Shown here one piece after another: positions 9,404 through 56,400 of a stretch of DNA of 64,000 nucleotides. Position numbers and translations under genes: made by a program. Below the pieces are notes generated by a model. That model searched no databases. It had not been told where the DNA came from and saw only the letters and a program-made list of their open reading frames with translations. Position 1 is the first letter of the stretch. Every line of letters begins with the position of its first letter. The DNA is from Apostichopus japonicus (taxonomy: Eukaryota > Echinodermata > Holothuroidea > Aspidochirotida > Stichopodidae): the NCBI RefSeq assembly GCF_037975245.1, contig NC_092575.1:17511810-17575809 (forward strand). The letters run 5' to 3'.

Positions 9404-12400
9404 TATCTGTTATAAGTAATTAACTGCTGTTGTAAGGGTAAGTTCTGTATCAAGTAATGACAGTGAATTGACCACACAAATCAATCAATTCCTTAACTAT
9501 GGCCATACCGAATCAACAGTCAGGACAAACATAATGGAGTCTTGGGTGATCACACAAATATATCTATAGAGTTTACTCAAAGAATACACCATTCCCCACC
9601 TCAAAGCAGTGAACATTTGTGGGTAGAGAGCACTGGCTTCCACTGAAGCTACTCATACACTGTTAAAAGTGCCTTCAAAGGCATTACAGAAAGGTTGTTA
9701 GACCACGATTGTAAATATGTACAAATATTACCAGGACTTCATATTTTAGCCAAATTAATTACCATAATTTTCAAACTGCATACAGTTTTTATTAATCTCT
9801 TGTTCCCAGCTCTTCCAGATTTGGTTCTAAGTGCAATACATACTAAGCCAGACGATGCAGTGATAGAACTATCAAGGATGGTTGACGTTTATGAAGACCT
9901 GGTGAAACGATGGGATTTAAAGGTAAAAATATACAGAAAAATCATAGATGTTCCTCTTCGCAGCAGTCTTAATAGCAGTCCATGCTGTGATTTGTTTTAA
10001 GGTTGGAAGTACTATTCAGTGTTTGTTAGTTTAAAAGAGCCATTTTTTATGGCATAATTGGTGACAATTTCTGCCATTCTGTGGCTATTACAAATGTCTT
10101 AGGTTGGCCGGAGAAGTTGGGGGGTGGGGGTGGGGTCAGGAGCTACCGCAACAGGGACCTGTTTCTATAAGGAGGAAGTATGGAAAGAGCCTTGAGAAAA
10201 TATGTGATAAAGAATAGTGTTTTCTCAGTAACATGATTACACTGCAGGATATTTGAAAAGTACAAAAATTGAGCCTGCGCGACTTAATTACCGCTAGGCC
10301 TGACGTGATTCTTGATGCGTCTGGTCTTAGGTAAGTTAGATAGGTAAGTTTGGTTATGTACGTCTTACCTGCAATACTGTACAATGAAAACAGAACTTGC
10401 AAAGAGTAGTTGGTAAACGCTTATATGTCACCTCTTGTTTTAATTGTTTCTACGAAGGATGTTTTAATTCTGGGCGACTTCAATGCCGACTGTTCATACG
10501 TCAGACAGAAGGAGTGGCCGGAAGTTCGGCTTCGATCTGACCAACGTTTCCAGTGGTACATAGGAGACGATGCGGACACCACCGTTTTGGAATCAACGGA
10601 TTGCGCGTACGACAGGTTCGTTAAGTAAACATTCTTGGGTTTGCTGGTATCAATAACAGTGACACCACGATGAGACATGGGAGTGGTCAGTGCATAAGAA
10701 GGGTCATGGGGGACACTGTTAGGGAATCAACAGATTGCGCGTACCACAGGTTCGTTACGTAAACATTCTTGGGTTTGCTGGTATCAATAACAGTGACACC
10801 ACGATGAGACATGGGAGTGGTCAGTGCATAAGAAGGGTCATGACACTTTTATTGAAATCTATAGCCATTTGTTACATGAATGTATTGTATTCAATATGCT
10901 GTAACATTAATGTCATGAGTAATATCTGGTATTTAGTATTCTCAGTCAACTGTCTCTTTTTGTAGCTATTTGTAGTGAGAGGAAATAAAAAAGTTATGAA
11001 TATTTGAAAGCACAAGAAAAGTGTTAAGACAAATTATGATGATATCATCAATACCAAGTACCTCTTTTCCTCATTACAAAAAAACTGTAACTATTATCTT
11101 TGCAGAAATTTGAAGTTTTGAGGACAAGAAAAACTGCCAATCAAAATCTTTATGATGCTTTAGTTAGGTGATGACATTTAACCTTAACATTTGTGATGAT
11201 CTGCAATATTTCAACAAAGCTCATCATGTCATGTGAAGTTATCTTGCAAATTATTTTTAAATCCCTCATTTGCATATGTCCCCTTTTGTAGATTTGCAAT
11301 CGCTGGGGAGGACCTGCAGAAAGCAGTCAGTAGTTACAAAGTCTTTGATTTCGAGACAGAATTTGGGATCAGTAAGGAGTTGGTAAGTTGCACCCTTGCT
11401 GTTGACTCATTTCTCGGTGCTTGTACAATCTATGAATGTAACAACGTTGATAAAACGTTTCTCTCGCATTGTTTCAATCTTTGTATCACTGCTAATTCTG
11501 TATAAGTATGTTTGTATTTATTTATGACCTAATAGGTGGTGTAGATTTAACTTTTTGTTTCCAAGGGGCGTCATCAGAAAGTTTCGGCTAGAGGAAGAGA
11601 GTACATTCACTGAACGGAGCTCTCTAACTTGATAAAGTTTAACAAACTTGTATACGTAGCAATATGAAATGTACCAGAAGAACTAAGCTGATATCTATCC
11701 TATCATTATCATTACTGTAGCATATCAGACAAACGTTAGTAGTTTGCTGGAATCTTTCAAAGTTATCAAAAGTGTTCTGCTAGGAGGTCTACCTGTCCCA
11801 GACATTCTCTAGGTTGAAAAGACACCATTTTGTTTTCTTGTCGAAATCAGTTTCCGTAATAACAAAATTAATTGTACAATTTTAACAGTTTGCAACAATC
11901 CCTGTTCTGAACTACTTTGTGGCCACTTTGTTGTGGTATCACCCCTCTCTTCCCATTCCTCCACTCACCCCTCCTGTTCCTTCCCCACCCCTCTCCTTCC
12001 TTCCCCAGCCCTCTCAATCCCCCCCCCTTCTTCCTCCCATGCTGCTCATCATCCACCTATACAAATCTACCTCTCTTTACACATGTCAAAAACTAGTTTA
12101 AGAAAGTCAGGCAGTGTGGTATTATAGTATAGACTTGTAAGAGTGAATAAAATAGACCAAAACTGAGTCAGCATAGTTTATATAAGGAGTGGATTTGACC
12201 CCCTTCTCAATAGAAACTCTCCCCTCCCCCTTCTCATGAGATGACCAATTCAGATTTGTGGGGCTGGGGTCAGGAGTTGTGGGCAGAGAAGGGACTGAAG
12301 GGTGCCAAACAGTGAGCTAAAGAGGACTAAACACAATGATCCTAATGATAAAGGGACATAAAGCAAAAAGACCTCTCCCTTCTCCCTCTCCCTGCTGCCT

Positions 12401-12735
12401 TACCCCTCTCAGGCTCTCCCTTTCCCCACTTCATGCCCCCTCCTTACCCCTCTCTGTTCCACAGTATTAAATCTTGACAGGCTACTACAGAAATATAAAA
12501 TAGTTGTTATTCATTGTATCTCTTTATTCTACAGGCAGAGAGTGTAAGTGACCACTATCCAATCGAAATGACACTATCAGACGAGGCATTCAACACAGCC
12601 AGCGAGCATAGTACAACAGATGGGAACGGAAGGGGCTCTGGTGTCCGTTGTAAGGGTCTTATATCATGTAATGCGCTCTGGATCTCTTCACTCCTCTGTG
12701 GGATTATGTTATTCTATTTCTTGTGGAGGGAGTGA
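5097..12735 (+). CDS. DNase I-family endonuclease, secreted with hydrophobic C-terminus, 8 exons, 328 aa
   Basis: Coding exons are 5097-5246, 5919-6007, 8219-8302, 9087-9187, 9810-9922, 10458-10615, 11292-11382 and 12535-12735; every junction is GT-AG and keeps frame. The protein is a DNase I-type Mg/Ca-dependent endonuclease. Residues 1-21 form a signal peptide, followed by INLASFNVRIFG. The catalytic set is complete: E62 (LIQE), H152 (SAIHTKP), D186 and N188 (LGDFNADCSYV), D231 (CAYDR) and H269 (SDHYPIEM). C191 and C228 match the conserved disulfide spacing. A tail of about 55 residues ends in a hydrophobic segment (about 305-326) just before the stop, absent from DNase I but reminiscent of GPI-anchored DNASE1L1, so a membrane-tethered enzyme is likely. 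Orthology to a particular vertebrate paralogue is not resolved. The ATG was chosen because it opens the signal peptide. Confidence 0.93.
5345..5885. repeat. Segmental duplication copy A in DNase intron 1
   Basis: The stretch containing ATGGACTCCAAATTGTG, then TGGATAGCCAACAAATAGG, then the G-run near 5819 recurs in intron 2 at about 6655-7340. The two copies share flanking order but each has its own inserted element. Copy A is interrupted by the 192-bp MITE at 5553-5744. Confidence 0.85.
5553..5744. mobile_element. 192-bp MITE with 18-bp perfect terminal inverted repeats
   Basis: The left end TTTAGAATCCGTACCATT is the exact reverse complement of the right end at 5727-5744. The homologous intron-2 block lacks this sequence, so it is an insertion. 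There is no coding capacity. The superfamily is not determined; the flanks are too AT-rich to define the target duplication. Confidence 0.8.
6655..7340. repeat. Segmental duplication copy B in DNase intron 2
   Basis: Homologous to 5345-5885. It contains the TTAA MITE at 6855-7189 in place of the MITE found in copy A. Confidence 0.85.
6855..7189. mobile_element. TTAA-flanked MITE (piggyBac-like), copy 1, right end decayed
   Basis: The left end TTAAAGGCATTGAA and the interior (for example AATTACCGACGGTAGCAAGC) match the copy at 62811-63150. The right end has GCGCAAGTCTTCAC but has lost the terminal TTAA. The duplicated block in intron 1 preserves the empty site, reading GTAATTAAATCTGATTTT where this copy is interrupted right after TTAA. 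TTAA targeting is typical of the piggyBac superfamily; no transposase is encoded. Confidence 0.8.
9343..9399. repeat. (TA)n microsatellite in DNase intron 4
   Basis: Uninterrupted TA dinucleotides over 57 bp, 156 bp after the exon-4 donor. Confidence 0.97.
10574..10841. repeat. Tandem duplication (134-bp period) of the DNase exon 6 3' end and donor
   Basis: The last part of exon 6 (GAATCAACGGATTGCGCG, then the donor CAG|GTTCG) and about 90 bp of intron are repeated 134 bp downstream. The second copy keeps GAATCAACAGATTGCGCG and a GT donor but carries a GAC to CAC change at the catalytic Asp codon. Reading through the first donor meets a stop within a few codons, so the second copy cannot simply extend the protein. 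Confidence 0.93.
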
Positions 12736-15680
12736 GGAGGGGGGGGGGTATGCAATTCACCATGTTCGCCTACCTCTCCTTTGATTTCTTATGCTTTTTT
12801 GGGGGTGGGGGGTGGGGCACAAAGGCGAAAATATCAGGAAGTATGTCCACTTTACAGAATGAAAAATAGAATTACCCTCCCTCCTTACACCAAGCCGTCA
12901 ATGAATCAAACGGCCTCTGCTCTCCATGACAGCAACTGTTTCCCCAGGAACATTGACTGTAGTAATATTGAAGAGTTACCTCCATATTTCCTTTGGTTTT
13001 GATTTTCTGATGAGATGGAACATATATATTTATCTGATAAATTATCTTATATATTATCTGAGATTAATGTGATTAATATTATAATGTGACATGGTGATAA
13101 GTCAGTATATAGAACAGCTGGTGGTGTTTGTAGCATACTTTTCTTCTAGAATTTCCCTCCATCAGATACATATTCTTGCATAGAAAAAATTGTTTTAGCG
13201 ATGGCACAACAGATGATTAAAATCTTGCATACATGCCAAGCAAGCGTCAATAGCTAGTGTAGGCTTACCACATTACCATAGAGCTGTTATACCTAATCTA
13301 CTGAAGTTATGTTCATTTGTTGAGGCTATTTCTACCAGGTATAATACTTGTGCATTTTGGAATGAAAATTTTGGCCTATTAGAAGATACTGATAATTATA
13401 TGATTAAACTATGCCTGGTTGAAAAATGGTGGGGAGTGAAAATAAGGTTAAAAGAGGCAAGAAGCTCATTTAAAGAGTGAAAATTAGTAAATGAGAATGA
13501 AACCAGGGCAGAAACTTGGAGACACAGTGGGACTTTCTCTTCAGTGAAGAGGCGGGGGGTGGGGGGGGGGGGAGAAACACAAGGACACAACTCAAAAATT
13601 TCCAATATGATGGATCACGTTTACCACAATGTCACAATTGTAATTTATGAGATGGGGACGTTTTGAGCTTTTCATAAAATTGGGATGGTATGTACCTCCT
13701 GTGCGCCCCCACCCCTTCCCCTGCCATCACTGAATGATGCCACAGGCTAAGAGCACTAAGTTTTGAAGACAAAAGAACTAATTAAAACTAACAAATTAAG
13801 GCTATATTTTGTTCAAGCTTTTTGTGTAGAAAGAGTACAGTACCTGCATATTTTTTTAATATATAAACTGGCTTCCCAAGTGTAATAAATTTATTAATTG
13901 GCAGAGAAATGAACAGCGTATTGTTCTTAAAAAGTTCCTACTTTAATAAAGTAACTTGATTATGAAGACCGTGCCTCTTTTAATCAGATCAAAATTGACC
14001 TTTTGACTTTAACATGATATTTCATCTGAAAAAAAATCATGATATCAAATTTCACAACTTTTTCATGTGCTAATCCTTTGTATCCTGTTTAGGGCCTCCG
14101 ATTTTTGTAACACCGTTTTTTGGTTCAATGTTTGCCTTTTTTAATAGTGCAGTAACTGGAAGGTGTACAGCTTACTATGTGCATGACAATATACACATCA
14201 AGTTTCATTGATTTGGAGATATATTGACGTAACATGTTTGGTTCTCTATAACTTTGGGTAAGAAATGAAACTCTGAATTTTGTTTAATTGGCCTTCAACT
14301 TAGATGCAAACATAGTATTTCGCTCCTATGCTGAACACATAAATGTGAATTGTTTCTTTCACCAGGGGGGGGGGGGGGAGGGGGTGCAGATTGACTTTTG
14401 TTCTTTTTCAACAAAGGTATCAACATGGCAAAAATCGGTACCATCATCAGTACTACAAATTGTGGGCCCTAAATAATGTCCCTCTGAATTTTAAGAAGAT
14501 ACCTCTACTCCCATTGTGTTCAGACAATATCCTAACAATTTTGTTGCCTTACAAACAAAATAAGAAAGGAATTGCTTCCATGTAGCAAAATAAACTTCCA
14601 AATTGGAGTGGGTTAGGAGGTAAGGCCTGAAAGAGAGACTATGAGATAGGGGAACTTCCATCAAACCTGCTTCCAATATTTCTTAAGAACTTTCCAAATT
14701 AAAAACTATTAATTTGTCCATCGGTTCAAAATTATGCAAAAAAATTTCTCGTTTTCTGTAAAATTTACTTCAGTAAGAATCTTAAACTTTTTAATTTAAT
14801 TTAATTTAAATTTAATTTGCATGCTATATTTTTTTATTACTATACAACAGATTGACTATTATATATGAATATTTATCTCATGTAGATTTACTACCTTCTC
14901 AGACGGTGCAAACATTCTTTCATTCCAGTAGACCAGTTTTTGTTGGACATTTCTATGTATAATGTATCTTTGTTGGACATTTGTATGTATAATGCACATA
15001 TAATGTATCTTTCACTAGAATTTCTACCAAAGAATTTTTTTATTAAATGAGTTTACTTTAAATATTTCATTCGCTCCAATAATATGATTTTGCACATTAT
15101 CTAAAATCTAAGAGCAAAATAAAATAAATATAAGAATAGAAAACTAAACTATCTGTACTTTTCTATCTTGCATGTATTCCTGTTTCTTAAAAGCATGAAC
15201 ATCCAGAGGGCTCAGTACTATCGCCCCCGTCTTGCACCCATGGACCATAATGGGTATGATGAACAGGGCAAAGGAAGACCCAGGTTAAGGAAACCTCTAT
15301 TTCCCTTTCCAGTATTCTCCCTCCACATGGCCCTCCTTGTTTCTCCAACAGAAAAAAAAAATGTTAGTAGAAATCCAAGTGTTCTGTGTATCACTGAATA
15401 TGGAAGGATGAATGTCCCCACTCATTTTTCCCCATCCCCCACCCCTGCCCCCACCCCCTCCACTTGCTTGGCAAATAAATCCCATGCAGGGCGTCAAATC
15501 TGATTCCATGCTGATATGATTTCCAAACATTTGACTTTGTAAGTATACGTGGACTCACATAAATAAATTGTAGAACAACAAGGCTAAAGAATACCATGGA
15601 AAAGGCGCCCGCAAGAACCCCACAGTGCTTTGGCTCTTCTCACAAATTATTAGACTAGTATCAATGTTGGTAGACATAGT
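12736..15680. other. Non-coding: DNase 3' region and intergenic DNA
   Basis: Probable 3' UTR followed by intergenic sequence. AATAAA motifs occur near 13883 and 13944. It holds G-runs (12737-12747, 13557-13571, 14366-14377) and AT-rich stretches. Short frames here lack family motifs and mostly follow low-complexity tracts. Confidence 0.6.
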
Positions 15681-16142
15681 GTACGGAAGCTCTGAAGGGC
15701 CAAACCACTATCAGTCTTGATTTAAATTCACACTTTGTTAACGTTAAATTTACACTTTATGAATCATAAATTCACACTTTATAGGCCTAGACGTTAAATT
15801 TACACTTTATAAACGTTAAATTCACAATTTTTAAACGTTAAATTCACACTTTATAAACTTAAAATTCATACTTTATAACCCTTCAGTTTACATTTTATAA
15901 TCCCTCACTTCACACTTTCACCTTTTTTTTAACATGAGAAGATGTAGATTACGTTTATTAAATTGTGTAGTTAAGGATTATAAAATGCGAATTAAACATT
16001 TGTAAAATGTGAATTTCAGGTTATTATATATTGTGAAGTTAATAAAGTGTAAAATTAACATTTTAAAGTGTAAATTTAAGGTTTATCAAGTGTGAATTTT
16101 AGACAAAAAATAAAGTAGTTTGGACCTTCAGTGCTTCCGTAC
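15681..16142. mobile_element. Foldback / MITE-like element, about 460 bp
   Basis: The left end GTACGGAAGCTCTGAAGG and the right end CCTTCAGTGCTTCCGTAC are inverted repeats of each other, with TA at the outermost position. The interior is itself a large imperfect palindrome: the left half repeats AAATTCACACTTTATAAACG-like 20-25-bp motifs about eight times and the right half has their inverse (AAAGTGTAAATTT). There is no coding capacity. The TA edge is compatible with a Tc1/mariner-type target. Confidence 0.82.
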
Positions 16143-16614
16143 ATAAGCTATATACCGGGTTGCGTTTACTAATAAAAAAAGACATACCATTTGCGTTTCC
16201 GATGGTATAAATTTGCCTCACTTTGTCTTTCATATATCATTAATCCGCTTCGTAAAGCCATACACTTCATACACACATTATATAAAGTACATAATCAGTA
16301 TAGAAAATGATCGCTAATAAGGTCTTCCCGTCATAGCTGTTGCATTCAGGATATACCCTTTTAAAGTAACCACCTTCACTTGAAAGGCTGTTTTATAAAG
16401 GAAACCTTTTCCTTTGACGAAAGGTTCTAAATTTGGACATCCTTTTCGGATCGATCTAGGAGAACACACCGTTGCACACGGGAGAACTGTAACAATATTT
16501 ATTTTGTAATATTTGCATGGAACAGTGAAAAGGGTGCTGTATGGATTTTGCTCAATTGCTTCAAAGTTAGAACTCCTCGGTGTGTAAATCTGGACTGAGG
16601 AAACAGATGCAACC
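16143..16614 (+). promoter_or_regulatory. Upstream region of the fucosyltransferase, candidate TATA box
   Basis: TTATATAAAG at 16278-16287 is the best TATA-like sequence between the foldback element and the ATG. The 470-bp gap otherwise contains only an opposite-strand frame with no family resemblance. Promoter role is inference. Confidence 0.3.
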
Positions 16615-18111
16615 ATGGCAATGTCCAGTTTTCCATTTCGAGCAGTTTTATTTCTAAACTTGACAGGACTAGCAGTACTTCTAATGATTTATTACATCCA
16701 CTCTGTAGATCGTTTCACAAAAAGGAACATAAAGGTTGATTCTTTCTTATTTGCGTATGGAAACTTACCACTCGACCATTCCAATGAAGCTATCACGTAC
16801 TTCGAAAACGTTATGTACGAGCACGACCCATTTTATAACAAATCGACGAGCTACACCGCGGCATCGCCAAATATAGACATCCAACCTAAATATCGCGGTT
16901 TAAAAGAAATGTGTTCCTCAAAGTCACAACCGTTGAGATGCCCCTCCAATAAGTTTGGTAAATGTATCAAGATAAGTTTGGTCGGACTTTGCGGTCACTG
17001 GAACACGGTGGGTCTCTTGCGTGCACTACCAGCGGAAATCTCTTCCTGTGGAACGCCAAGAAATATATCCATCGTAATAGATCACGCGGCCACAGCGTCA
17101 GCAATATCAACATCTGATATCGTAGTATTTTTGTTCGTGAATAACTACTTGAACATGAATGTTTGGCAGAGTTTAAGGTACTTCAAACCAGCGGGACAAA
17201 TGTGGGTATTCCAAACCGAAGAAAGCCCATACTACGCTATCGGTTTATTGCCTCCGTGGATATATCGGAACGATTCCTTCGATATATCGAATACGTACAG
17301 AACCTCAGCGGATATATATTCACCATATGGATACTTCGAACCGTTTCGTACGGAGGAGTCGAATCAAGTGGGAAATATATCGGCTGTAATCGAAAACAAA
17401 TCGCGATTCATGATCTGGATTAGCAGTCATTGTGAGACGTTACAATGGGACAGAACAAAATTTGCCCGAGATCTTCAAAAAATTATGAAAGTAGATATTT
17501 TTGGAAGATGTGGAAATGATACCTTGTGTAAATGTAGGTGGCAACAAAACTGTAGAAATGAAGTCGATGATTTTGTACGAACATATAAATTTTCATTGGC
17601 CTTAGAAAACTCTTGTTGCGAGGATTACATCACAGAAAAACTATGGCATACGTACTCCGTGGGTAATATCCCAGTCGTCGTCGGTCCAAAGATACAGAAT
17701 TACGAAAAATTAGTCCCGCCTGGTTCTTTCATTCACGCGGATCAATTTAAATCTATTCATGACCTTAAAAAATATTTGGAATATCTCGATAGAAACGATA
17801 CAGCATATTTAGAATATTTCCAATGGAGAACTGTCGGCAAGATAAGCGAACATTCGATCAAAGACCATTTTCAGAGTCATCTCTCTAATCCGGTTATGTG
17901 TTCGATCGTAAATAAGTATATAGAGAGGCAGGATATGGCAAAGAAACAAAATGACGGAAAGAGAGGAAAGCTGGATGGTGTCAAAATGTTCGATCCTTAC
18001 GGCCCGGAGTGGAAGGGGACATGTCATAGTTGCGGCGATAACCAGTGGATTAAGGATTACGAATATCCTCCTGGTCACAAAAGGCAAGAGGAATGGATAT
18101 GGGCTAGGTAA
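16615..18111 (+). CDS. Intronless alpha-1,3-fucosyltransferase (GT10), 498 aa
   Basis: A single 1,497-bp frame encodes a type II Golgi protein: a short cytoplasmic end, a signal-anchor at about residues 9-28 (FLNLTGLAVLLMIYYIH), a stem, then the GT10 domain. M196-WVFQTEESPYY corresponds to the first conserved motif of alpha-1,3-fucosyltransferases. L328-ALENSCCEDYITEKLW followed by NIPVVVG is the GDP-fucose-binding family signature. Several N-glycosylation sequons are present (for example NKS, NIS, NDS). The protein is longer than the usual 350-430 residues because of a stem and a C-terminal extension of about 80 residues containing a CHSC motif. A single-exon gene is common for this family. 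The second Met (codon 3) is an alternative start. The likely role is transfer of fucose from GDP-fucose to N-acetylglucosamine in glycans; the exact acceptor cannot be read from sequence. Confidence 0.92.
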   Translation: MAMSSFPFRAVLFLNLTGLAVLLMIYYIHSVDRFTKRNIKVDSFLFAYGNLPLDHSNEAITYFENVMYEHDPFYNKSTSYTAASPNIDIQPKYRGLKEMCSSKSQPLRCPSNKFGKCIKISLVGLCGHWNTVGLLRALPAEISSCGTPRNISIVIDHAATASAISTSDIVVFLFVNNYLNMNVWQSLRYFKPAGQMWVFQTEESPYYAIGLLPPWIYRNDSFDISNTYRTSADIYSPYGYFEPFRTEESNQVGNISAVIENKSRFMIWISSHCETLQWDRTKFARDLQKIMKVDIFGRCGNDTLCKCRWQQNCRNEVDDFVRTYKFSLALENSCCEDYITEKLWHTYSVGNIPVVVGPKIQNYEKLVPPGSFIHADQFKSIHDLKKYLEYLDRNDTAYLEYFQWRTVGKISEHSIKDHFQSHLSNPVMCSIVNKYIERQDMAKKQNDGKRGKLDGVKMFDPYGPEWKGTCHSCGDNQWIKDYEYPPGHKRQEEWIWAR

Positions 18112-19384
18112 TATATGTTATATTGATGGATTTGGAGCCGCGAACTGCAAGGTTGAGGAAGAAGAGGTTGAGGCCGGAACTCGGTTAGGACTTAACCACT
18201 TTGGAAGAGTATTGATTTCAATGAGGGGGGGGGGGGGGAGTGGGAGGGGTAGGTGAGAGAGAAAGAAATATCGTTCGGCTAGTTTATTTTTCGTTTCTGT
18301 AATTTTGTTTGAGGTATATTTTAAAGATTAACTCGGTATCATCTTAAACTATTAAGAGAGGCTTAAATTTACTTACAGTTAGAAAAGTCATTTCCTTGAG
18401 GTTCTGACCCTCCAAATAATGCCAAGGCATTCAGGTGCCAGTGCAATTGGAAATAAAAAGGTGACGTGTGAGAACATATTCTCTCTTTTTTTTTTTTTTA
18501 AATCTGAGCATGAGGGGTTGGGTAGAGAAATTGATGGTGCTTACATGAAAAGTGGTGCTATATTCTGGATTGGGGGTATTGACTTTATTCTCTACCCCCT
18601 CCCATCAGAAGTATACGTGGTTGCTCCCTTGTTTCCAGTATATTTGACGGTAATACTGAAGAACTATAATATATTTGCGACATCCCACGTGGGGCACTGG
18701 TCATGGCTTTGTATGTGAGTTTATCAATGATGTTACGTCATGTTTTTAATCGGAATTGCTTTTAATGTTTCCGTCACATTTTCACCCTCATACCAAGGGG
18801 ACTAGGATTAAGAGTGGATCAGTATATTAGGTTCGTGCATAGGGACTTTCTTGGGGACTCTTCTTAAAAATAAAGTGATGTAATCACAAATGCGTTTCGC
18901 ATGTAGGTACCATACCCGAACATGTCCGTTGTCCGACACTGAGAAGGGGTGAAGAGAATACAGTCCTGGGACCCAAGGTCAATAAGAGGACCCAAGGAAA
19001 TATGGGATAAATTATAAGATTCATAATACAGGCCAACTTTACATAAATATTTTCCCTGGGCCCCATCTGGCTCTCGACGCTACTGACCACAATTATTGGC
19101 GGGCAGCGTCTTACCTAATTTGGTGACTGTTTCGCCGTCATATCATGAGAAATCATTTTTTTACTGCTTGTATGTTATAGAGAACAAATCAAAGTACATG
19201 TGTTGTTGAAACAAGGACTGAATGTGACTTAATCGAAGCATTTTATCAATTCTTTGTGGATAGCAAAGACCTTCTGTATTTGCTTTAGCGGGCTTGGAAA
19301 GTGACCAATTAATGTCAAGTCAATAGACCAATCACTTGTGTTACAAAAACTACATACATGTCGTCTCGCTTATTATTTATTTAT

Positions 19385-19450
19385 TAAACTTTATTTTGAG
19401 AGGGTAACTCGTTTAGCCGAAGCTAATCTTCCACGAGGCCTATACATGAT
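19385..19450. repeat. Interspersed repeat fragment shared with 49725-49780
   Basis: AGGGTAACTCGTTTAGCCG followed by AAGCTAAT resembles AGGGTGACTCGGTAAGCCG and GAGCTAAT at about 49727. It is probably the end of an unidentified SINE or LINE family. The boundaries are unclear. Confidence 0.55.
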
Positions 19451-22621: not shown

Positions 22622-22650
22622 TTCTTCTTCTTCTTCTTCTTCTTCTTCTT
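22622..22650. repeat. (TTC)n microsatellite
   Basis: Nine to ten uninterrupted TTC triplets. Confidence 0.95.
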
Positions 22651-32298: not shown

Positions 32299-32333
<35 letters not shown>

Positions 32334-35300
32334 TTGTTGTTGCTGCTGGTGCAGAAATGCCTGCTGGAATATCTCCTGTGGTGACATGGATCTCTGTTGG
32401 GTCTTATTACTGAGATCCGCCCCTGCTGAATGACCCAAGCCCTGGGAGATGACAGACTGTACCATGGCAGGGTTAGTTGCCACTGCATGTTTCACCAAGT
32501 TCGCCATGGCCTCCTGTTTGGCCTGCGGGGTCATCTGGCCGTGGTTGTTGGCGGCGATCTGCTGTCGGAGGATGCTGGACATCTGTTCCTGCATCAGGGG
32601 TGACTGTCGCTGATGGAAGCCGGCCTCGGTGTTCTGTGGCACCGGCATTGAGGCGGAAACCTTCAGGAGGTCTAAGAATGTTCCCTTATCCAGAGGTGAG
32701 GCAAGTCTGTTGATGAGTGAGTCCAAGATAGGAATTGATCATAAGTGACAAATAGAGGGGGTGGGAAGGGGGGGTTGATCATAAGTGACAGATAGAGGGG
32801 GTGGGACGGGGGGGCAGGGTTGAACCCATAAACTCACAGATCTTAGGTTTCACTGCATATAATACTATCACTTTGATCCACTAGACCATAGCACTGATTT
32901 AAATGCTGTTTTTTTGTTCCTTTTTTATTATTACAAATTTCTTATAGGTCAATTTTGATTTCACTTTTAACTTTAGTCACATTATCTTTAGGCTGAAATC
33001 GTGTTTCTTCTTCTGTTTGATCTGTAGTTAAACTAGTTCTATCATTCCCCCCCCCCCTTCCATTTAATTTTTTACCACCTTACAAACTTCCAAAGAAATA
33101 AAACTCAAACCTGTTTTGCTGTTGGTCAAGCTCTGTTGGCACCGTCCTGAAGTGGAGATCATTATCCAATGGAACGTCTGGGCTCTGGAGAGATGCGAGT
33201 CTGCCGTCAGGATCCTTGAAGGAATCAAAGAAGTGGTCCGTGGGACCGCTACTGAAAGGACTTGGGAGACCGGTCGAAGACAGAGGGGAACTCTTCCTGG
33301 GAGCAGATCCCGGTATGGGACTCTGTGGCAAAATATGGTACAAAAAGATTGTAATTATTTCAGTGGCCCCATACGGAATAATTAACAGAGTAAAAGTTAA
33401 CCAGTAAACCTACCTCTTCCACCCTACCCCCCTACCCACCCCCAACCAACCCCCACCCCTTCCATATATTTGACTCCAGCTCCTGACACTGAATATTCCA
33501 TCCGCATGGAACAAAAGGAAAGGACCTTTGCTTGCCATCTTAAGATCAGTTTCAGAAAATATAAAAAAAGTGGGGTTGGCTGCCTGGCCAGAAGTTTGAA
33601 CTAGTCAGACATGCTAGGAGGAGGGAGCTAAGAACTCTAACAAGGGAATTTGTTTACCTTATGAACATCATTCCCATGAGTTTTGTATCCTAGTTTTTCT
33701 GTTGTATCCTAGTGGGGGTGGATGCCCTGCCAAAATTTGAGCTAGTCATAGAACCTAGCAGAAGGAAGCTTAGATTCCCCCCATCCCCCAACTGTGCTAC
33801 TGCTGCCACAGTAAGCCTCTCAAGAACAACTTCTCATCTTTCTTCCTAACTACAGACCGACAGCATTTTAACCCTTCCTCCCTAAGCCTCTCTTCTCTGT
33901 GGGTTTACAGAAAGCCTCTCAAAACAACTTCTCATCTTTCTTCCTAACTACAGAGTGACATGTTAAACCTTCCTCCCTAAAGTCTCTCTTCTCTGTGGGT
34001 TTACAAAAAGCCTCTCAAAACAACTTCTCATCTTTCTTCCTAACTACAGAATGACATGTTAAACCTTCCTCCCTAAAGTCTCTCTTCTCTGTGGGTTTAC
34101 AGAAAGCCTCTCAATACAACTTCTCATCTTTCTTCCTAACTACAGAGTGACATGTTAAACCTTCCTCCCTAAAGTCTCTCTTCTCTGTGGGTTTACAGAA
34201 AGCCTCTCAAAACAACTTCTCATCTTTCTTCCTAACTACAGAGTGACATGTTAAACCTTCCTCCCTAAAGTCTCTCTTCTCTGTGGGTTTACAGAAAGCC
34301 TCTCAATACAACTTCTCATCTTTCTTCCTAACTACAGAGTGACATGTTAAACCTTCCTCCCTAAAGTCTCTCTTCTCTGTGGGTTTACAGAAAGCCTCTC
34401 AATACAACTTCTCATCTTTCTTCCTAACTACAGAGTGACATGTTAAACCTTCCTCCCTAAAGTCTCTCTTCTCTGTGGGTTTACAGAAAGCCTCTCAATA
34501 CAACTTCTCATCTTTCTTCCTAACTACAGAGTGACATGTTAAACCTTCCTCCCTAAAGTCTCTCTTCTCTGTGGGTTTACAGAAAGCCTCTCAATACAAC
34601 TTCTCATCTTTCTTCCAAACTACAGAGAGACATGTTAAACCTTCCTCCCTAAAGTCTCTCTTCTCTGTGGGTTTACAGAAAGCCTCTCAATACAACTTCT
34701 CATCTTTCTTCCTAACTACAGAGTGACATGTTAAACCTTCCTCCCTAAAGTCTCTCTTCTCTGTGGGTTTACAGAAAGCCTCTCAATACAACTTCTCATC
34801 TTTCTTCCTAACTACAGAGTGACATGTTAAACCTTCCTCCCTAAAGTCTCTCTTCTCTGTGGGTTTACAGAAAGCCTCTCAAAACAACTTCTCATCTTTC
34901 TTCCTAACTACAGAGTGACATGTTAAACCTTCCTCCCTAAAGTCTCTCTTCTCTGTGGGTTTACAGAAAGCCTCTCAAAACAACTTCTCATCTTTCTTCC
35001 TAACTACAGAGTGACATGTTAAACCTTCCTCCCTAAAGTCTCTCTTCTCTGTGGGTTTACAGAAAGCCTCTCAAAACAACTTCTCATCTTTCTTCCTAAC
35101 TACAGAGTGACATGTTAAACCTTCCTCCCTAAAGTCTCTCTTCTCTGTGGGTTTACAGAAAGCCTCTCAATACAACTTCTCATCTTTCTTCCTAACTACA
35201 GAGTGACATGTTAAACCTTCCTCCCTAAAGTCTCTCTTCTCTGTGGGTTTACAGAAAGCCTCTCAATACAACTTCTCATCTTTCTTCCTAACTACAGAGT

Positions 35301-38300
35301 GACATGTTAAACCTTCCTCCCTAAAGCCTCTCAAAACATCTTCTCATCTTCCTAATAACAGACTGACAACATGTTACACATACCTCCCTGAAGTCTCTCT
35401 TCTCTGTGGGTTGGTTGGGTCTGATAATCGCCAAAAAGTTATTAAATGCAGTCTGGTCACTCTCCCCCACTGCACCAGCTGGTGAACCGCCTCTTGCAAC
35501 CAATCCGGTGCTGCCACGTCTCTTGGAATCTTTCTGCAGCTCGAATTCAATCTCAGCTAAACTCTTTGCTTGGCCTTCCATCACTGAGGGAAGGGCAAAA
35601 TAAAAAAAAGGGGTGTGTAAAGCTTGGGTTTCACCCTATTGGTGGTCACTTGCCATATGAGGTAAAATAAAAAACATAAAGTAACCAATCTTTGAAGGGA
35701 ACATGTTACACCCACCATAAAAAAAAGGGGTGTAAAGCAAGGGTTACACCCTATTGGTGGTAACTCGCCATATGATGAAAAAAAAACCAACATTAAAGTC
35801 ACCAATCTTTGAAGGGAACACGTTATACCCACCATAAAGACAGTACTTTTACATCCTCTCTACAACATGAAGTTTTCAGAAATTAAAATGACACTTCATT
35901 GCAAATGAGAGCCGAGAAAGGCTAGATGGCAATTAGAAGATAAAAATGTCACTGAAACTCTGCTCACATTTCTGTTGCACCTCTCGCTTGCGCATGTCAT
36001 TCTCCACATCCATACTGTCCTTCCCGGATCCCTTTTGTAGCATCTCCAAGAGGGTGAATGGGGTTGAGTCGGGGGTGTCATTAATCAGTGCATGGATGGG
36101 GGTGGAACCCGCCGATTCGGAACCAGAATGGCCTCCACGAAGGTCTGTGTGTAAAGCAAAGCAGGGTATAAGGGTTGGGCAGACTGTCCAATTGATTTAA
36201 CAATTTTTCTGTTTCCATTAAAAAAACTCTTGGTAAACTTTTAGGCTCAACAAATATTTTGTGCTAATAGATTTATTTTATCAACAGCCAGTGCAGTAGA
36301 ACCAACTCTATTGAAACATGTAACAAAAAGGTGAAAAAGACATTTCTAAAACTAAAAATTAACACATAAGGCCCTGTGGTGCCATTCTTAGATTTACTCA
36401 ATCCATCTATACTGATATATATGAAAGTTACATTCAAAACCGAAAAACCTCCTTAAAAGCAAGATTCTCAGCATCTGTTTGCAGGGACATCACAAGCATA
36501 TCCCTCACATGAAGTAAACATGATGATTCAGCTTGCTTCTACTTTATTGAGGCAACTGCAACCACTACTGCCCCAGAAGGGCCTGGGCCCCGAAATCTAT
36601 GGGGGCCCCCAAAAGCAAAAGGCAAGAAAAAGGGGCCTATTACAAACATATCACCAAATATCTTTTAAAAAGAAAAAAAATTGGAAGTTGCCTCTTTGTG
36701 ATACATTTTTTGTTACATGTTAGAGCACATTTACATATCAATCAAAACTTATGAATTACAAAGTCTACACAATGCAAACTGCCTCTACACAAACACATTG
36801 TTATCGTCGTTCCTGTATTAAAAACTGCAAATATCAGCCATGCATGCTTTGGTTGCCTGTCAACTGGCCAGCTGGGGCACAGGAAACTTGTATCCGGCCC
36901 GGGGCCTACAAAAGCCCTGAAACCGAGTGCCATCAGCCTCTCACAAAATTATCTGGTCATTTTTAAGCTTTAATCTAGACCGTGAAATATGAACAAATTC
37001 CAAGTTTCATTCCAAGTGGGACGAAAAGTAATATTTTACCAGGAAACCATTGTGGATGGAAATGTCAACAATATCATATCGACAAAATAAGGCCCGATAA
37101 TGTTGAGCATCCTCTTACTCACCCTGGAGGAACTCCAATTCATCTTTCTGGAGTGACGATCTACGGCTGGAGCCCAAGCTGCTGCGTCCGTCCGCCACTT
37201 GTCCGTTGGTCGAGAAGAAGTGGCTGAATCGACTCTGAGTCAAACCCTGCTCTTCGTTTTCCACCGGGGGAGCGATCTGTAACGTAACCGGAAGAAGAGG
37301 ATTGATTGATTTCTTGAAGCATTTCCTGAGGGCTGTTGAAGTGTCTGATAGTTCCCTATGTGGTTTAAAGTCGACCTATAAATCGCCATTTCTACTTGAC
37401 AGTTCTTCAAAGTAAGACAATGTTGGGACTGTTATTAATTCCTATCACAATCTTGTGTGTGACTATAAATGAACATGACTCTCGGTCGAGACACTCTGAG
37501 AAGATTTACGTGGGCGATTGCGGCTTGGGGACACAATTCGTTGGATGTGTTTATACACAGCCTTTTGTTTACATCTCATCTTACCAAACAAAATTATCTG
37601 AAACTGATGCACACGTTTTGAACCGAGACTTCTTTACGTCGTGCAAGAAGTCAGTTGTGAAGACAAAGTTAGCAAGTGTGTTAACATGTTTGGAGCCTAC
37701 CTGTATCAGAGTATAAAATCACAATGGGAAGGGTTCGCACAAGGAAGTTATACCTGATCGATTTTGTTTAATGTCATATGAATGGATTAAATGTCACAGG
37801 ATTTAAGTAAATGTGAAAGGATGAAATGACATCCTAAATCATATTATTAGATACTGAAGAAAACAGCAACACTATACTGAAAATATTTCTAATCATATAC
37901 CTTGAAATTCCAAACACAATATATCTTAACTTAGAACAACGTAAGGGAGGGTTTTTTCAAGTCAGAAGAAACAAGATGCTATACTTTATCTGAAACTGTA
38001 TATTTCTTACGGGTGGGTGGGGGGTGGGGTAAAAATTGTGCTTTTAAATTAATCTGATTCTACAGTTCCTCAACTAAAAATATAAGCTCACTAAATTCAA
38101 GAGCATATGTACCTCAAATCATAATCCTCTATTTATACATTTATATGGATAATATGCATGGTATAGGTGCTTGCTTCCTTATTGACAAATTGCCCCCCCC
38201 CCCATCTTCACTTCATATCGCAAAAAACTTATGACAAGACAAGCGACTTTATCTGTATATGGTATCTTGGTCTCTTGACTAACAACAACGGGCTGCTTCA

Positions 38301-41300
38301 ATTAACATAAGGTTAATCTAAGATATCATGTAGAAGTATTGAGGGAATGCATGGTTTGGGACAATAAAAGAATATTCTTATAAATAGAAACAGACATATC
38401 AGAAGTTTAGCATCATAACAACAAGAGCCCAAGGGCACTGTGGTTCCTTGCTTGGGGTATATGACAATACACATAATATTATCAAGCAAGATTGGGCTCA
38501 AATAGTCCAAGTAATTGTGGTCCTACATGTTCCCATAAAGTAACCAACACTATAGCCAACACTTTTGTGATCACAAAATGTGATCGGATTTTGGATCAAA
38601 AGGCACTTTTGAGATCTAAATATGGCGTCGAAAATGTAAGAAATATAAGAGACCTACAAGCGTGTCAACAGATATGATAACATTGGTGACCTCAGATGAC
38701 ATGACCTTTAAGTTTCAAAATGTTCCACCACCCCGTTCACAACTTGTCCCAAAATATCAACCATGTCACACCTTGGCATTGAGATTTAATTGCATTAAAT
38801 TAAAAAAAAATAACACATAGCTTCACACACAAAGGTCACCCGAAGGTCAACCAATTGACATTTTTGAAAGGTGAGACCTAAATAGAGCATGACTGTAAAA
38901 ATTCAAACATTTTTTCTTGCCCATTTTCTCCCCCCAAAATACTACTTTTTAACATTAGCTGACCTTTGGTGACGTTGGACCACATGACCGTTAAGTTTGA
39001 AAATATTCCCCTATACCATTTGCAACTTGTCCAAAAAAATAAACCTTGTCACACCTTGGCACTGGGAGTTATTGCATTAAATGTGTGAAAATTAACTTTG
39101 ACCTCATATAACTTCGCACACGAAGGTCACATGGGGGTCAACCCATTGACATTTATGATCAGAAGGTACCTTTAACATCTGAAAATAGCATCGAAACTGT
39201 AAAAATCCACAAAACACGAAAAGATCACCAGAGGTCAAATTGAGGTCAAGGGTCACCCAGATGCGGGTCGACAATTGGATTACATTGAAGCAACTCCCAA
39301 CCCTAACGGACAATTTGTTCTCAAGTTATCGCAAAAATACTAGTTTTTTTATCATTAATTGACCTTTGGTGACCTCGGATCACATGACCCTTAAGTTTGA
39401 AAATATTCCCCTATAGCATTTGCAACTTGTCTCAAAATATCAACTGTGTAACACCTCGGCACTGGGAGTTATTACACTAAATGTCTGAAAATTAACTTTG
39501 ACCTCATATAACTTCGCACACGAAGGTCAGACGGGGGTCAACCCATTTACATTTATGATCAGAAGGTACCTTTAACATCTGAAAATAGCATCGAAACTGT
39601 AAAAATCCACAAAACACGAAAAGGTCACCAGAGGTCAAATTGAGGTCAAGGGTCATCCAGATGCGGGTCGACAATTGGATTACATTGAAGCAACTCCCAA
39701 CCCTAACGGACAATTTGTTCTCAAGTTATCGCAAAAATACTAGTTTTTTATCATTAATTGACCTTTGGTGACCTCGGATCACATGACCCTTAAGTTTGGA
39801 AATATTCCCCTATACCATTTGCAACTACTCCAAAAATATCAACCTTGTCACAACTTGGAACTGGGAGTTATTGCATTAAATGTCTGAAAATTAACTTTGA
39901 CCTCATATAACTTTGCACACGAAGGTCACATGGGGGTCAACCTATTGACATTTATGATCAGAAGGTACCTTTAACATCTGAAAATAGCATCGAAACTGTA
40001 AAAATCCACAAAACACGAAAAGGTCACCAGAGGTCAAATTGAGGTCAAGGGTCACCCAGATGCGGGTCGACAATTGGATTACATTGAAGCAACTCCCAAC
40101 CCTAACGGACAATTTGTTCTCAAGTTATCGCAAAAATACTAGTTTTTTATCATTAATTGACCTTTGGTGACCTCGGATCACATGACCCTTAAGTTTGAAA
40201 ATATTCCCCTATACCATTTGCAACTTGTCTCAAAATATCAACTGTGTAACACCTTGGCACTGGGAGTTATTACACTAAATGTCTGAAAATTAACTTTGAC
40301 CTCATATAACTTAACATACAAAGGTCACCTTGGGTTAACTTATTGACATTTTTGATTGATGAGACCTAAATTAGAGCATCAAACTATACAAATTCAAACA
40401 TTTTTTCTTTGCCCATTTTCTGCCCCAAAAATACTAGTTTTTTAACATTAATTGACCTTTGGTGACCTCGGATCACATGACGGTTAAGTTTGAAAATATT
40501 TCCCTATACCATTTGCAACTTGTCCAAAAATATCAACCATGTCACACCTTGGAACTGGGAGTTGTTGCATTAAATGTCTGAAAATGAACTTTGACCTCGT
40601 ATAACTTCGCACACGAAGGTCACACGGGTGTCAACCAATTGACATTTTTGATCGGAAGGTACCTTTGATATCCAAATCTAGCATCAAAACCAAACATTTC
40701 CTTTTTTGCTCGTTTCCTCCCAAAATAAGCACATTTTTTCTAATGTGACCTTTGACCTTTTGACCTTGGTTTCAGATGTAGTTTAATCTCCTGATTCCAA
40801 AAAACAAAACGACAAGTCTGTACAACCATCCTAACTCTGACCGAAAAACTTTGACCCCATATAACTTCGCACATAAAGGTCACACGGGGTCAACCTATTG
40901 ACATTTATGATCAGAAGGTACCTTTGACATCTGAAAATAGCATCAAAACTGTAAAAATCCCCAAAAACACGTAAAGGTCACCAGAGGTCAAATTGAGGTC
41001 AAGGGTCACCCAGATGCGGGTCGACAATTGAACAACATTGAAGCAACTCCCAACCCTAACGGACATTTCGTTCTCAAGTTATCGCAAAAATACTAGTTTT
41101 TTATCATTAATTGACCTTTGGTGACCTCGGATCACATGACCGTTAAGTTTGAAAATGCTCCCCTAACCAGTTCACAACTTGTCCCGAAATATCAATCTTG
41201 TCACACATTGGCACTGGGAGTTATTGCAGTTTTAATATTTTCGGTTTTTGGACCATAACTGACCTTTGGTGACCTTTGCGGGCACCAGAAACAATAGGGC

Positions 41301-50700: not shown

Positions 50701-51366
50701 CTTATTTGCCTATTTTATTTGATGAGTGTTTGGCCTAGCCTAACTTGGGTTACTTTAATGTTAGGCCTACAATAGTTCTACATAATTTAGTGTGTCTCAA
50801 ATCCCCAAACTACTGGCTAACTAACTGCCAGAGGATTTTTGATGTTTGCTAGTTGATAAAGAAAACAATTTTCGGCACATACTACATTAGCTAGGCCTAG
50901 ACATAAAGAAAGTGAAATATGTGGTAATTCTGTTATTGTTAACAATAAGTTTGGCATTTTTTGCAAGTGGTTAAAGTTATGAGATTTTGGGCCCGTAATC
51001 TTAATAGTGCAGTCAGGACTATGGCATTTAGCATAAAACTAAGTTTGAAAAATAATTTTTCATCATTTAATTCTCTGACCCAATTATTCAATAATGTTAA
51101 TATGTTTCTCTGATCATTGACAAGCCCCCTTACTCAATTACCTGAAAGATTGCAAGTGAGCAATGGCATGACTTTAGCACAATTCTGCATTGTTTTGCTT
51201 TGACATGTGAAAGGCATACTGCCATGAAAAAGTCTAATATAACATGATTCTTGGATAGAACATTTAGCTCAGAAAAAAAATAATGTTTTGCCTCTCTATT
51301 GAGAAGTTTGGAATGAGTTCAGTGTAGAGTTACATCAAAACTGTCAAATGAGGACAATTACCAACA
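47763..51366. other. Region between EIF4ENIF1 and RNF185: 5' region, no further gene seen
   Basis: Contains the presumed EIF4ENIF1 first intron and promoter, AT-rich filler and an interspersed repeat fragment at about 49725-49780. The short frame at 50164-50475 has no recognisable domain. No strong RNF185 promoter element could be assigned. Confidence 0.5.
48940..49010 (-). promoter_or_regulatory. Candidate EIF4ENIF1 5' UTR exon and promoter
   Basis: On the minus strand a locally CpG-rich stretch (GTGCGACGGAGGGCG) ends at a strong donor, GAAAA|GTGAGT at 48940/48939. This would be a non-coding first exon joining the acceptor directly before the ATG at 47762. The transcription start is unknown; this is inference. 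Confidence 0.35.
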
Positions 51367-51374
51367 ACGTCTTG

Positions 51375-53038
51375 TAGGGCTGTGCCGTTTACACGTTTAA
51401 ACGTGGAAACGAACGAAACATCGTTTAAACGTTTAATAAAACCTTATGAACGTTTAAACGAAACTATATCAACTGAAAATTAAATTATTGGCAAAAATCG
51501 CGTATTAATTCCCGTGTTTATTTTGTCTACTACGCGAAATAACAAAACAACTTACGATCAGTCGAATCATAAACCGCGAACGTAATCCTACTTTTGTCCC
51601 CCCCCCGATGTATCCGGCGATATGAATGGCTTAAACTTGAACGCTGTTATCCTTTTGTGAAAACTTCCTGATTCGCGGCACAGATAATCCAGTCAATACA
51701 TGTTCGATCGAAATGATTACAATCCCTGTCCATTACGTTGAACTCTCGGACCAGACAATACCGGGTCGAATTCTCGACTTGGTAATAGTTGTTCAAATAT
51801 ATGATCAAAGGAAATGTATCGATTGGAGATCGTAAAATAAACTCTGAAAATCAGTAGAGAAATTACCAATTGTGTACAAAAAGTAAGTTGGTACACCTTT
51901 CAAATTTTACGAAAGATCAAGCAAAACACTTTCGAAAAATTCACATGAAACTGGCAAATCGTGCTAAATGCAACTAATGTCATGTAAACAAGGCTCTAGT
52001 ACACCCATTTATGAATAAACCGTAAAACCACATCTGGTGTTAAGCGGGGGTGGGGGGGGGGAAGAGAAAGTATTTTCTAGAATTTCCAAAAATACGGAAA
52101 AAATAATGTCCTACCACAGTTAAGTGTATAACAAATAGCCTAACCACCTCGTCTGTTACGGATCTCACGTAACTACAAAAACACAACCAATTGTATTTTG
52201 CGAACTTGACGTTTTCTACAAGAACATGGAAATAATGTTAAGCATTAGTTAATCATGCCGTGTGGCCTAAAACATATTTTATTACAAGGTTTTCTTTCAT
52301 AAAGATGACCATAGCTTGATATCTTGTGCAGCGTGTATGAACTGTTCCTCGTGTATCATGGGGAATACTCTATGAAACGTTTCTTGGAAACGTGCCAAAA
52401 ATATTAACAAACAGGTGTTAGACAGGGGATGAGCGCGCAGTTGTTTGGCGAGGTACCTGGGAAAATTCTGAGCACATATACAGTATCCTACCGTAGTATT
52501 TAAGTTAGGTTAAACCGTACTGCAGTTGTAAACTGATGTACGTTTAGTGCGCGCTATTCATTGTTAGGCATTCTAGAAACGGGGCTTTGCCGAACGTTTT
52601 TTGTTTCATAATATCGGAGGTTCTGTAAGTTTTTAAACTTTTTAAAGATTGTAACTTTTTAAACTTTTTTTTAACTTTTTAACTTTTTGTAATTTTTAAA
52701 GATTGTAAAACAGATTAAATCTCTTTTCATTTTATAACATAATACAGGTACTATAACTTGTCATTTAAAATTTTTCATCAGCTTCGTGACAATTTAAATT
52801 CAAAAAGTTGTCAGTATTTTGCATCCTCAACTGCGAATTTTGTTATCGCCAGACACGCAAAAAATTCCTTTTCCTTTTCCGGGGTCTTCGCCCCACCAGG
52901 GCCCTAGGGCGGCTCCCTGGACCCCACGCCTTTATACTCGGCGTTTTCTCGCGATATTCGCGAACGTTTAAACGTTTAAATGAACGAAAAATCGGCCGTT
53001 TAAACGTTTAGGTCTTTAAACGAAAACTCACAGCCCTA
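51375..53038. mobile_element. Non-autonomous hAT-like transposon, 1,664 bp
   Basis: The ends TAGGGCTGTG and CACAGCCCTA are perfect 10-bp inverted repeats, flanked by 8-bp duplications ACGTCTTG (51367-51374) and ACGTCTTC (53039-53046), matching at 7 of 8 bases. An 8-bp target duplication and a YAGGG-type end are typical of hAT elements. Palindromic GTTTAAAC motifs cluster at both ends (three left, two right) and could be subterminal transposase-binding sites. No transposase frame was found. An internal GC-rich patch at about 52880-52945 contrasts with the AT-rich remainder. Confidence 0.85.
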
Positions 53039-53496
53039 ACGTCTTCAACTTTCAATCATTTCCAAATTACCCTACGAGCAGTGTAATAAATCACTGTTTT
53101 GTAGTTAAACACATTCGAGGCCTGTTTCCTTGTGGCTGTCAATGGATAAAGGATACTACTTAGTGCTCTAAAGTTAACATCAAAATTCACATTAACCATT
53201 GTGTTGTTCTTTATGTTGTGCCATATATCACAATCCTTTCAGAAATTTCCCTCTGTTGTTTTCAGTTAAGGATGGTGCCGTGAATCCTGTTTCCAAATCA
53301 TTTTCCACTGAACCATCTACATTATATACATGAATGTGTGACTGCTGACAAACCTTGATGACTCTAGATGGTCTTGGATATATTTGCATTAAGAAAAGGG
53401 CTAGACTGACCTGTTTTAAGAAAGAAAAGACAAGAATCTGATGCCATAAATTACAAAAATAAAATATAAAAACTGTAGTAACAATTAAAACAAAAC

Positions 53497-56400
53497 ATGC
53501 ATATGAGGCCAGATGATGCAGATGGAGCTGGTGGTCCAAGAAGTGCCAAAGAGGCAGAGGTGAGACAACGAAATTCAAAGGATGGAGAACCTGCTGCAAC
53601 AGAGCCAGAGGTTGAAGGAGCAACAGGTACAACCACCCAGCAGGATGGCCATTTTGAATGTAACATATGTTTGGACACTGCAAAAGATGCTGTAGTCAGT
53701 AGATGCGGCCATCTTTTCTGGTGAGTCGGTCTATTTCATGGTAATCTGCTTTGATCCATGTTAATGTTTCTACAATTGACTTTTCTAGGAACGTGCACGT
53801 ATGTTGTTGCTTGTTATACCCAGTAAAGAATATATATTCAGGGGCAATGGGAAGAAGGACCAACTGACATTCCAGGGAGAGTGGTGAAGTAAGATGTGGC
53901 AATGTACATATATATAATCTTCTCAGACCATTCAAAAGTAGTGAACTGCTCTGTTACTCTAAAAGTATGATTTTGAATGATTCAGAATTGTCCTTTTTAA
54001 GTCCTGATTTTAATAAGAATTTTGAACAGCCATCGGTTGGTTGTGTACTCATTGGCCATTTTGATGATGAAGTATCACGTACATGTAAGGACTGTACATA
54101 GTGCATCTATAGCGCTGTTTTACTTTATAGTGTTGCATTTATTGTGTTCAGTCATCTCTGCATGTAGATAGATATTCCAAAACTAGATTCTGGGTGAGTG
54201 TTGACATTTTTCTGTTCTTAAAATACGTACTTGTTTAAGGCTCTTTATATATGGAGAGGTTTACTATATATACAGTAGTTGGGCACTGATGGGGGATATA
54301 AACCATTTCTGTTGATTTTCAAACGATTACAGACAATTTACATCAAGGCTTTTTATGGAGGTGTTCTAAAATTGGGTGTCTGTAGGAACTCACATTTTCT
54401 CTAATGTTGATTTGTTGATTTTCTAAAGTGTAAACAACAAAAATAGCATGGTGCCAAACTATTAATGTTAACTTGCATATATATAGATCTTTCATTTTAG
54501 GACATCTTTTTTCTTTATCTATTTATTTCAGTTGGCCGTGTCTCTACCAGTGGCTAGAAACAAGACCCAATAGACAGACTTGCCCTGTATGCAAAGCAGG
54601 CATTAGCAAAGACAATGTCATTCCACTGTATGGTAGAGGTAGTACCAATCAACAAGATCCAAGGTATTGTTTATAATTTGTTGATATCTGTAATAACATG
54701 AAAAAGTTGCTAAAATCATAATAAGGTAGCTAGGCTAGTCTCGTTATAACTCTTGTCATAGTCTGCAGGTTCTTTGAAACTTCCAACTTGGCTCTTCCCG
54801 TAAATTGTTTCCCAAACTACTATTTTTTGGTGCAAAAAATTGGTGGAACATATCAGACAGCAAGTGATATACTTTAACTGTAGTTAAGACCCCCCCCCCC
54901 CCCGGCTTTAGACATCTGCAAAGGGTAGTTTGTGTTTCTCAAAGCAGAGATCTATAACACCTATATCGCCTGGGTGGTAGCTACAGTATGATATGACGAT
55001 ATAGAATAATAGTTGAAACCGTCCACAAAATATTCTCTTCACAAATATGTCCAAACACTTCAGTTTTGTGGTTTGAGACGGTCAAGTCACCAGATGTGAA
55101 CATGTTTTTCAGTGTTTTTATTTTATGAGCCCCTATTAAGTCAGAATGTGTTTTTTCTGGGTTTTCCTAAAGAATTGAAGAGATCCTATTGTTTTCTTTG
55201 TTTTTTCTATCAAGGTGCATTTTGTTCTTTCCAATGCTGCTTTAACAAATTTGGTAGTTGTTTCTCGATTTCATTTTGACCAATCATATATCTTATATAT
55301 ATATGAAATCAACATGGAGAAAAAAGTAATCCAAAAAAGTTGCAGCATGGTAGCAGGTGATTGCACACTTCTCTTTATTTTGGGGAAAAAACTGTCAAAA
55401 TTTCTTAGCATAAAACTAGTCTGTCTGGTTCTGTTGAGGTTTGCGTCCATGTTGCTTTATTTGCGCCAATATTTATGTATTTTTGGTTTTTACTTTATAG
55501 AGAGAAGCTACCACCTAGACCTCAGGGGGAAAGACCAGAACCAGAGAATCATGGGGTGAGTAACAATTAGCAATGAATAATAAATGGCTGATCATAAGCC
55601 ATCTTGGTGGGGGGCGGGGAGGGGGCGGGGGGTGGACCAAAACCAGAGAACCATGCGGTAAGTAACAATTATCAATGAGTAATAATGGCTGATCATAAGC
55701 CAACTCCCATCTTGGCGGTGGGGGGGGGGCTGGAATAAAACCAGAGAACCATGGGGTAAGTTACATTAAGAAAGAGTAATGAATGTTTGATCATGGGAGT
55801 GTTGCTATAACCAACATTATTACAGTGGCATTCACAGGATTTCAAAGGTAGGGGAAGGGTAAAACTTTCAAATTTAGACCGAACTTATATGAAAGGGCCA
55901 GAGGTAAATGAAGGATTTTGGTGGTGTGGCCTTGGGGTGGATGAAGCAGACTCTGAAGAAGATGGGGTGGGGATGGCAATCCCACCCAGAACCCCCCCCC
56001 ACCCCACCTGTTTGCCCATACCATTGCATCATTAGATTATCTTGCCTCATAGTGCTCATATAATTTACATTTTATTCTTTTCTTATTCTTTCTTACAGCC
56101 ATTTCATAATTTTGGTATCGGTGACGGTGGTTTCCAGATGTCTTTTGGTATCGGGGCATTTCCTTTCGGCTTCTTTGCATCAACGTTTAACATAGGAAAT
56201 GGTCAGTTTGGAGGACATCCACGTAAGACATGCCCCGTTGTTTAAATGTGAAATTGATGTAATAATTGCAATTAAGGGGTTTTGTGATGAGGGACAATGT
56301 GACACTTATATGAAAGTTAAAGTTACCCTAAACTGTATAGGTGACAATTCTGTCTGGTTGTCTTGTTTTTAACTCTACATATGGTTCTTAGAATGTAAAG

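Follow-up and report, generated by a model that had tools for sequence, protein, structure and literature searches.

Within the window, by which we mean the whole stretch of 64,000 nucleotides analysed here, three unrelated genes carry tandem arrays in which the end of an exon is repeated together with its 5' splice site, and this raises the question of whether such arrays reflect a process acting at donors or the general background of local repeats. Predicted gene models combined homology with open frames, GT/AG sites and splice phase; the homology probes were human proteins, and frames and splice phases are independent of their exact letters. The models, which provided 27 donors and 28 acceptors, comprise a DNase I-like gene (~5.1-12.6 kb, forward strand; homology to DNase I and splice phases), a single-exon GT10 fucosyltransferase (16588-18111, forward strand; Pfam PF00852), EIF4ENIF1, or 4E-T (~26.8-47.8 kb, reverse strand; open frame, phases and context), and RNF185 (~53.5-57 kb, forward strand; homology to RNF185 and splice phases). 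On the reverse strand at 1-3030, a long open frame that is cut off by the left edge of the window was read by eye as the gag/protease/reverse transcriptase of a BEL/Pao-like retrotransposon. Repeats were detected with TRF and self-alignment, a local direct repeat being defined by a length of at least 30 bp and an offset of 20-2000, and individual cases were inspected by eye. Homology and a weight matrix served to call splice sites; for the donor scores in the window, the matrix was built from the window's own donors.

Exon 6 of the DNase I-like gene (10458-10615, forward strand) was assigned as coding from DNase I homology and its phases with exons 5 and 7, and ends at the donor CAG|GTTCGT at 10615. 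TRF placed the array at 10589-10842, with a period of 134 bp, 1.9 copies and 97% identity, and inspection by eye extended the first copy (10574-10722, forward strand) upstream to GGACAC at 10574; this copy comprises the last 27 bp of the exon, or up to 42 bp, with the donor and the start of the intron. The second copy (10723-10842, forward strand; TRF and donor scan) is intronic and contains a decoy donor with the same sequence as the real one, CAG|GTTCGT, and the same PWM score (7.8), and its exon-derived portion has decayed (Asp to His). Use of the distal donor would meet an in-frame stop 10 nt beyond the real one. By eye, GACAC occurs both where the unit starts in the exon and directly after copy 2, which on this one reading would fit a microhomology-mediated duplication.

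In EIF4ENIF1, the late coding exon at 35384-35583 (reverse strand; open frame, phases and context) has the donor GAG|GTATGT at 35384, and a minisatellite with an exon-side copy spans 33808-35413 (reverse strand; TRF, self-alignment and donor scan). The intronic array (33808-35332) consists of a 96-bp unit in ~16 copies (15.9 according to TRF) that are 98% alike. TRF ended the array at 35332, and the exon-end copy, which includes the exon's last ~30 bp and the donor, is more diverged and was detected by self-alignment only. The donor GGTATGT reads GGAAGGT in the intronic copies, and a donor scan of these found no donor-like site remaining; were a distal donor used, an in-frame stop would be met 60 nt beyond the real one. 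The introns of EIF4ENIF1 are unusually rich in repeats. A separate 117-bp repeat in two copies (35600-35838, reverse strand; TRF) lies upstream of this exon without reaching it, ending 17 bp before the acceptor (35583), and a large tandem array of 399-bp and 295-bp units lies in an intron at 38936-40725, besides the 96-bp array.

Exon 3 of RNF185 (55501-55555, forward strand; RNF185 homology, phase 0 into exon 4) ends at the donor GGG|GTGAGT at 55555. Three copies of its last 17 bp, the donor and the start of the intron occupy 55539-55794 (forward strand; TRF and donor scan), with a TRF period of 98 bp, 2.6 copies and 80% identity, and a donor-to-donor spacing of 98-102 bp. Both decoy donors, GCG|GTAAGT (10.0) and GGG|GTAAGT (10.3), match the real donor (10.3) in strength, and an in-frame stop lies 12 nt beyond the real donor in the event that a distal one is used.

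The three arrays were thus found where the preliminary description had placed them, each overlapping a homology-supported donor (10615, 35384 and 55555), and its periods of 96-134 bp and copy numbers of two, about 16 and three agree with those given by TRF (134, 96 and 98 bp; 1.9, ~16 and 2.6 copies). By TRF all three are head-to-tail repeats of high identity with a unit of ~10-150 bp, as in minisatellites and local tandem duplications, and in all three genes the unit contains 17-42 bp of exon and the predicted donor, as in boundary repeats. The introns concerned border normal exons with matching phases, the splice junction itself lying inside the repeat unit. When the three units were searched against the DNA of the whole genome (671,581,487 bases in 35 contigs), each matched its home locus only and no dispersed copies were found, indicating that no dispersed element was being inserted; an origin of this kind was therefore rejected.

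To place these cases against a background, we sampled exons matched by five Pfam families (myosin head, kinesin, AMP-binding, ABC membrane and SNF2), taking 76 loci of ~3.2 kb, 20 further exons within them and 37 shorter loci, which amounted to 131-133 exons beyond the window, all of them taken from conserved domains in a small number of large families, with several belonging to the same genes. Minus-strand loci were reoriented before donors and acceptors were compared. Local repeats covered 10.5% of the 76 loci around conserved exons, and first-order Markov versions of these loci gave 0 such self-matches, showing that the repeats are real and not due to chance. In the window, they covered 12-16% of the genic span (15.9% with the criterion given above) and 26.7% (about 27-28%) of the introns of its genes (26.6 kb in total). 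With that intron coverage, approximately seven of the 27 window donors would be expected in repeats by chance, and three were observed; finding this many in 64 kb is therefore not the unusual concentration it had been taken for. None of the 28 window acceptors lay within a local repeat.

In the sample, copies straddling exon boundaries were seen at donors and acceptors alike, in unrelated genes. At donors, a myosin locus (L003, G000:C4:23980312-23983548, array at ~1729-2651) contained a 53-bp unit in ~17 copies with only 7 bp of exon, each copy carrying CTAG|GTATGC or GTAAGC, which makes it a naturally occurring series of nearly equivalent 5' splice sites. Two further myosin donors were repeated, one in a unit of 206 bp at 91% identity with 75 bp of exon (L024) and the other over up to 163 bp in four copies with 89 bp of exon (L028), as were a kinesin donor (L069, ~113 bp with ~70 bp of exon), whose copy has lost its donor, and an SNF2 donor (L106, 44 bp in at least six copies); L003 and L069 were counted after by-eye correction of the automatic donor call. 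Two weaker donor cases, L097 and the myosin locus L030 (G000:C18:1310735-1313926), were also included. In L030, the copy is found in the intron before the myosin exon, ~400 bp upstream, and consists of the 3' end of that exon and its donor, at which 8 bp are inserted.

Equivalent duplications spanning acceptors were found at four loci, and the pattern is therefore not restricted to donors, contrary to what had been proposed. In the myosin locus L008 (G000:C19:15108385-15111570, ~249-623), a 124-bp unit is present three times at 98% identity, each copy comprising the end of the intron, the acceptor and 69 bp from the start of the exon, so that the real acceptor has two complete ones ahead of it. 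The other three were a kinesin acceptor (L050, 165 bp in two copies) and two ABC acceptors, one with a 63-bp unit in at least four copies (L094) and the other with ~134 bp in two copies (L086), where the acceptor call is weak and both candidate sites lie within the repeat. Among all these cases the duplicate splice sites were often intact. Loci L063, L022, L091 and L021 were left uncounted, as their arrays start at or shortly past the donor without exon sequence, and so was L099, where the copied piece of exon stops short of the donor. The array of L021 (G000:C10:9078249-9081467, ~1748-2448 in minus-strand orientation) is ~700 bp of near-pure (TCCTC)n, 38 bp past a myosin donor.

For window and sample together, 10 of 158 donors (6.3%) and 4 of 158 acceptors (2.5%) lay in a local repeat (Fisher p=0.17). 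Of the two halves of the data, the first (window and central exons) had given 7/103 donors versus 0/104 acceptors (p=0.007); the asymmetry was absent in the second half, made up of new exons (3/55 versus 4/54), and a donors-only pattern was consequently rejected. Dropping the weakest donor cases left 7 versus 4 (p=0.54) and the conclusion unchanged. The deep-intron baseline, scored as 16-base stretches wholly within a repeat at positions more than 250 bp from sampled exons, which may include intergenic DNA, was 11.7%, and both kinds of junction fell under it (donors, p=0.018; acceptors, p=3e-5; binomial values that are approximate, as junctions were taken as independent). Splice sites are thus depleted of local repeats relative to introns, not enriched. 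Exon interiors had 2% in local repeats. At 500-1400 bp from the exons, coverage was equal on both sides (donor side, 13.6-14.6%; acceptor side, 13.6-14.9%), and within 60 bp, in the central-exon sample, it was 0-1.3% on the acceptor side versus 5-6% on the donor side. Coverage was also higher in the 30 bp adjoining donors than in those adjoining acceptors and, given this and the first half of the data, some of the asymmetry may be real, although it is weak and unproven.

Taken together, our results suggest, with a probability of about 0.85, that the arrays represent ordinary minisatellites and local tandem duplications of a genome rich in repeats, and that the three cases in the window are draws from its background. 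Since the repeats are common genome-wide, occur at both exon ends and cover splice sites less often than introns, no donor-specific mechanism is needed. Small tandem duplications would arise regardless of exon boundaries, some then probably expanding by slippage or unequal exchange, and those altering coding sequence would be purged by selection. A duplication straddling a boundary would keep one copy on the intact exon, the first at a donor and the last at an acceptor, and would be tolerated because this copy continues to provide the splice site; the remaining copies would presumably be spliced out as intron and could decay or multiply. Provided that splicing uses the copy on the whole exon, the genes keep their normal reading frames. 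The earlier suggestion that selection tolerates growth on the intron side holds in so far as exon interiors are at ~2% and straddling copies lie on the intron side; it does not hold as a property of donors alone, being true of both exon ends. What had appeared as a pattern thus becomes a measured background rate, in which splice junctions are often duplicated, at both exon ends and usually with an intact duplicate site. For gene annotation, duplicated exon ends of this type can prompt wrong exon calls.

Tandem duplication has reportedly been linked to new introns by Zhuo et al. in 2007, among other studies. It is an accepted route to intron gain (PMC4974935; PMC2891723), and our arrays resemble such gains in that splice signals and exon sequence are copied with the protein unchanged; they differ in that an existing intron grows and no new one is formed, because the duplicated segment already held an exon-intron junction. 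The kind of repeat is itself already described: in 2009, De Grassi and Ciccarelli compiled a catalogue of tandem repeats located at exon-intron boundaries of human genes in segmental duplications (162 candidate alignments before manual filtering and 27 intron modifications after it; PMC2812944). In that catalogue, as here, the units (there 62-126 bp and shorter) straddle exon-intron boundaries, and the repeated part is spliced out (PMC2812944), as is presumably the case in our arrays. The human repeats vary between paralogues and include some new introns with RNA evidence (PMC2812944), while the present arrays, read from DNA alone, lengthen existing introns of apparently single-copy genes. Intronic minisatellites in C. 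elegans are reported to be linked to multiple alternative splicing (PMC4039745); they are likewise locus-specific arrays within introns with units of tens of bp, and differ from ours, in which the unit includes the exon end and the splice site.

The preliminary description had attributed the arrays to a mutational mechanism acting at 5' splice sites, such as R-loops or transcription-linked replication slippage, in keeping with all three window boundary cases being donors and with the donor excess of the first half. Its proposed comparison of donors with acceptors and introns, run on the genome-wide sample, gave no donor enrichment, the outcome it had itself named as counting against the idea: donors (6.3%) were under, not over, intron positions (11.7% in deep introns, ~28% in window introns) and did not significantly exceed acceptors (p=0.17), deep-intron coverage was alike on both exon sides, and the acceptor cases share the same anatomy. 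We therefore regard this mechanism as highly improbable. Slightly more credible, and still very unlikely, is that the donor copies serve as functional decoys, for instance as additional U1-binding sites regulating splicing or intron-terminal processing. Most copies do retain donors, as in RNF185 (10.0 and 10.3 versus 10.3), L003 (~17 times CTAG|GTATGC), and L106 and L028 (CAG|GT); on the other hand, the donor is lost in all intronic EIF4ENIF1 copies and in the L069 copy, young arrays are expected to keep intact sites anyway, and the donor 9-mer of L003 is conserved no better than another stretch of its unit (TTAATATCATG). Selection on the L003 decoys was rejected, as an excess of invariant positions was due to cutting the copies at the donor and another anchor gave a tie. 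Copies that are nearly identical carry a classic risk of assembly error, through collapsed or duplicated haplotypes. This general risk, to which nothing in the present data points, makes for the least probable of the explanations, given that the cases are numerous, the copies bear distinct substitutions, and the matching published assembly was made from HiFi reads (PMC10344927), whose length is sufficient to span such arrays.

A further, doubtful possibility is that duplications straddling acceptors are purged harder than those straddling donors, the donor pattern being a by-product of this exclusion. A duplicated acceptor would put a complete and usable set of branch point, tract and AG upstream, where they are transcribed first, and a duplicated donor would leave the real one first. 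The counts at the junctions (10/158 versus 4/158), the near-acceptor coverage of 0-1.3% versus 5-6% within 60 bp, and the acceptors being furthest under the intron baseline are consistent with this; against it are the overall comparison (p=0.17) and the second half of the data (3/55 versus 4/54). The arrays offer natural constructs for testing how splicing chooses among several equal sites, and junction duplications (~6% of donors, 2.5% of acceptors) are perhaps abundant enough to serve as a natural experiment of this kind, in which, tentatively, acceptor duplications might be purged more than donor duplications because use tends to fall on the upstream copy of a site. Were splicing to prefer the upstream of two equal sites, duplicated donors would be spared and duplicated acceptors would be harmful; yet L008 and L094 persist, with three to four near-identical acceptors upstream of an intact exon, indicating that such structures are tolerated.
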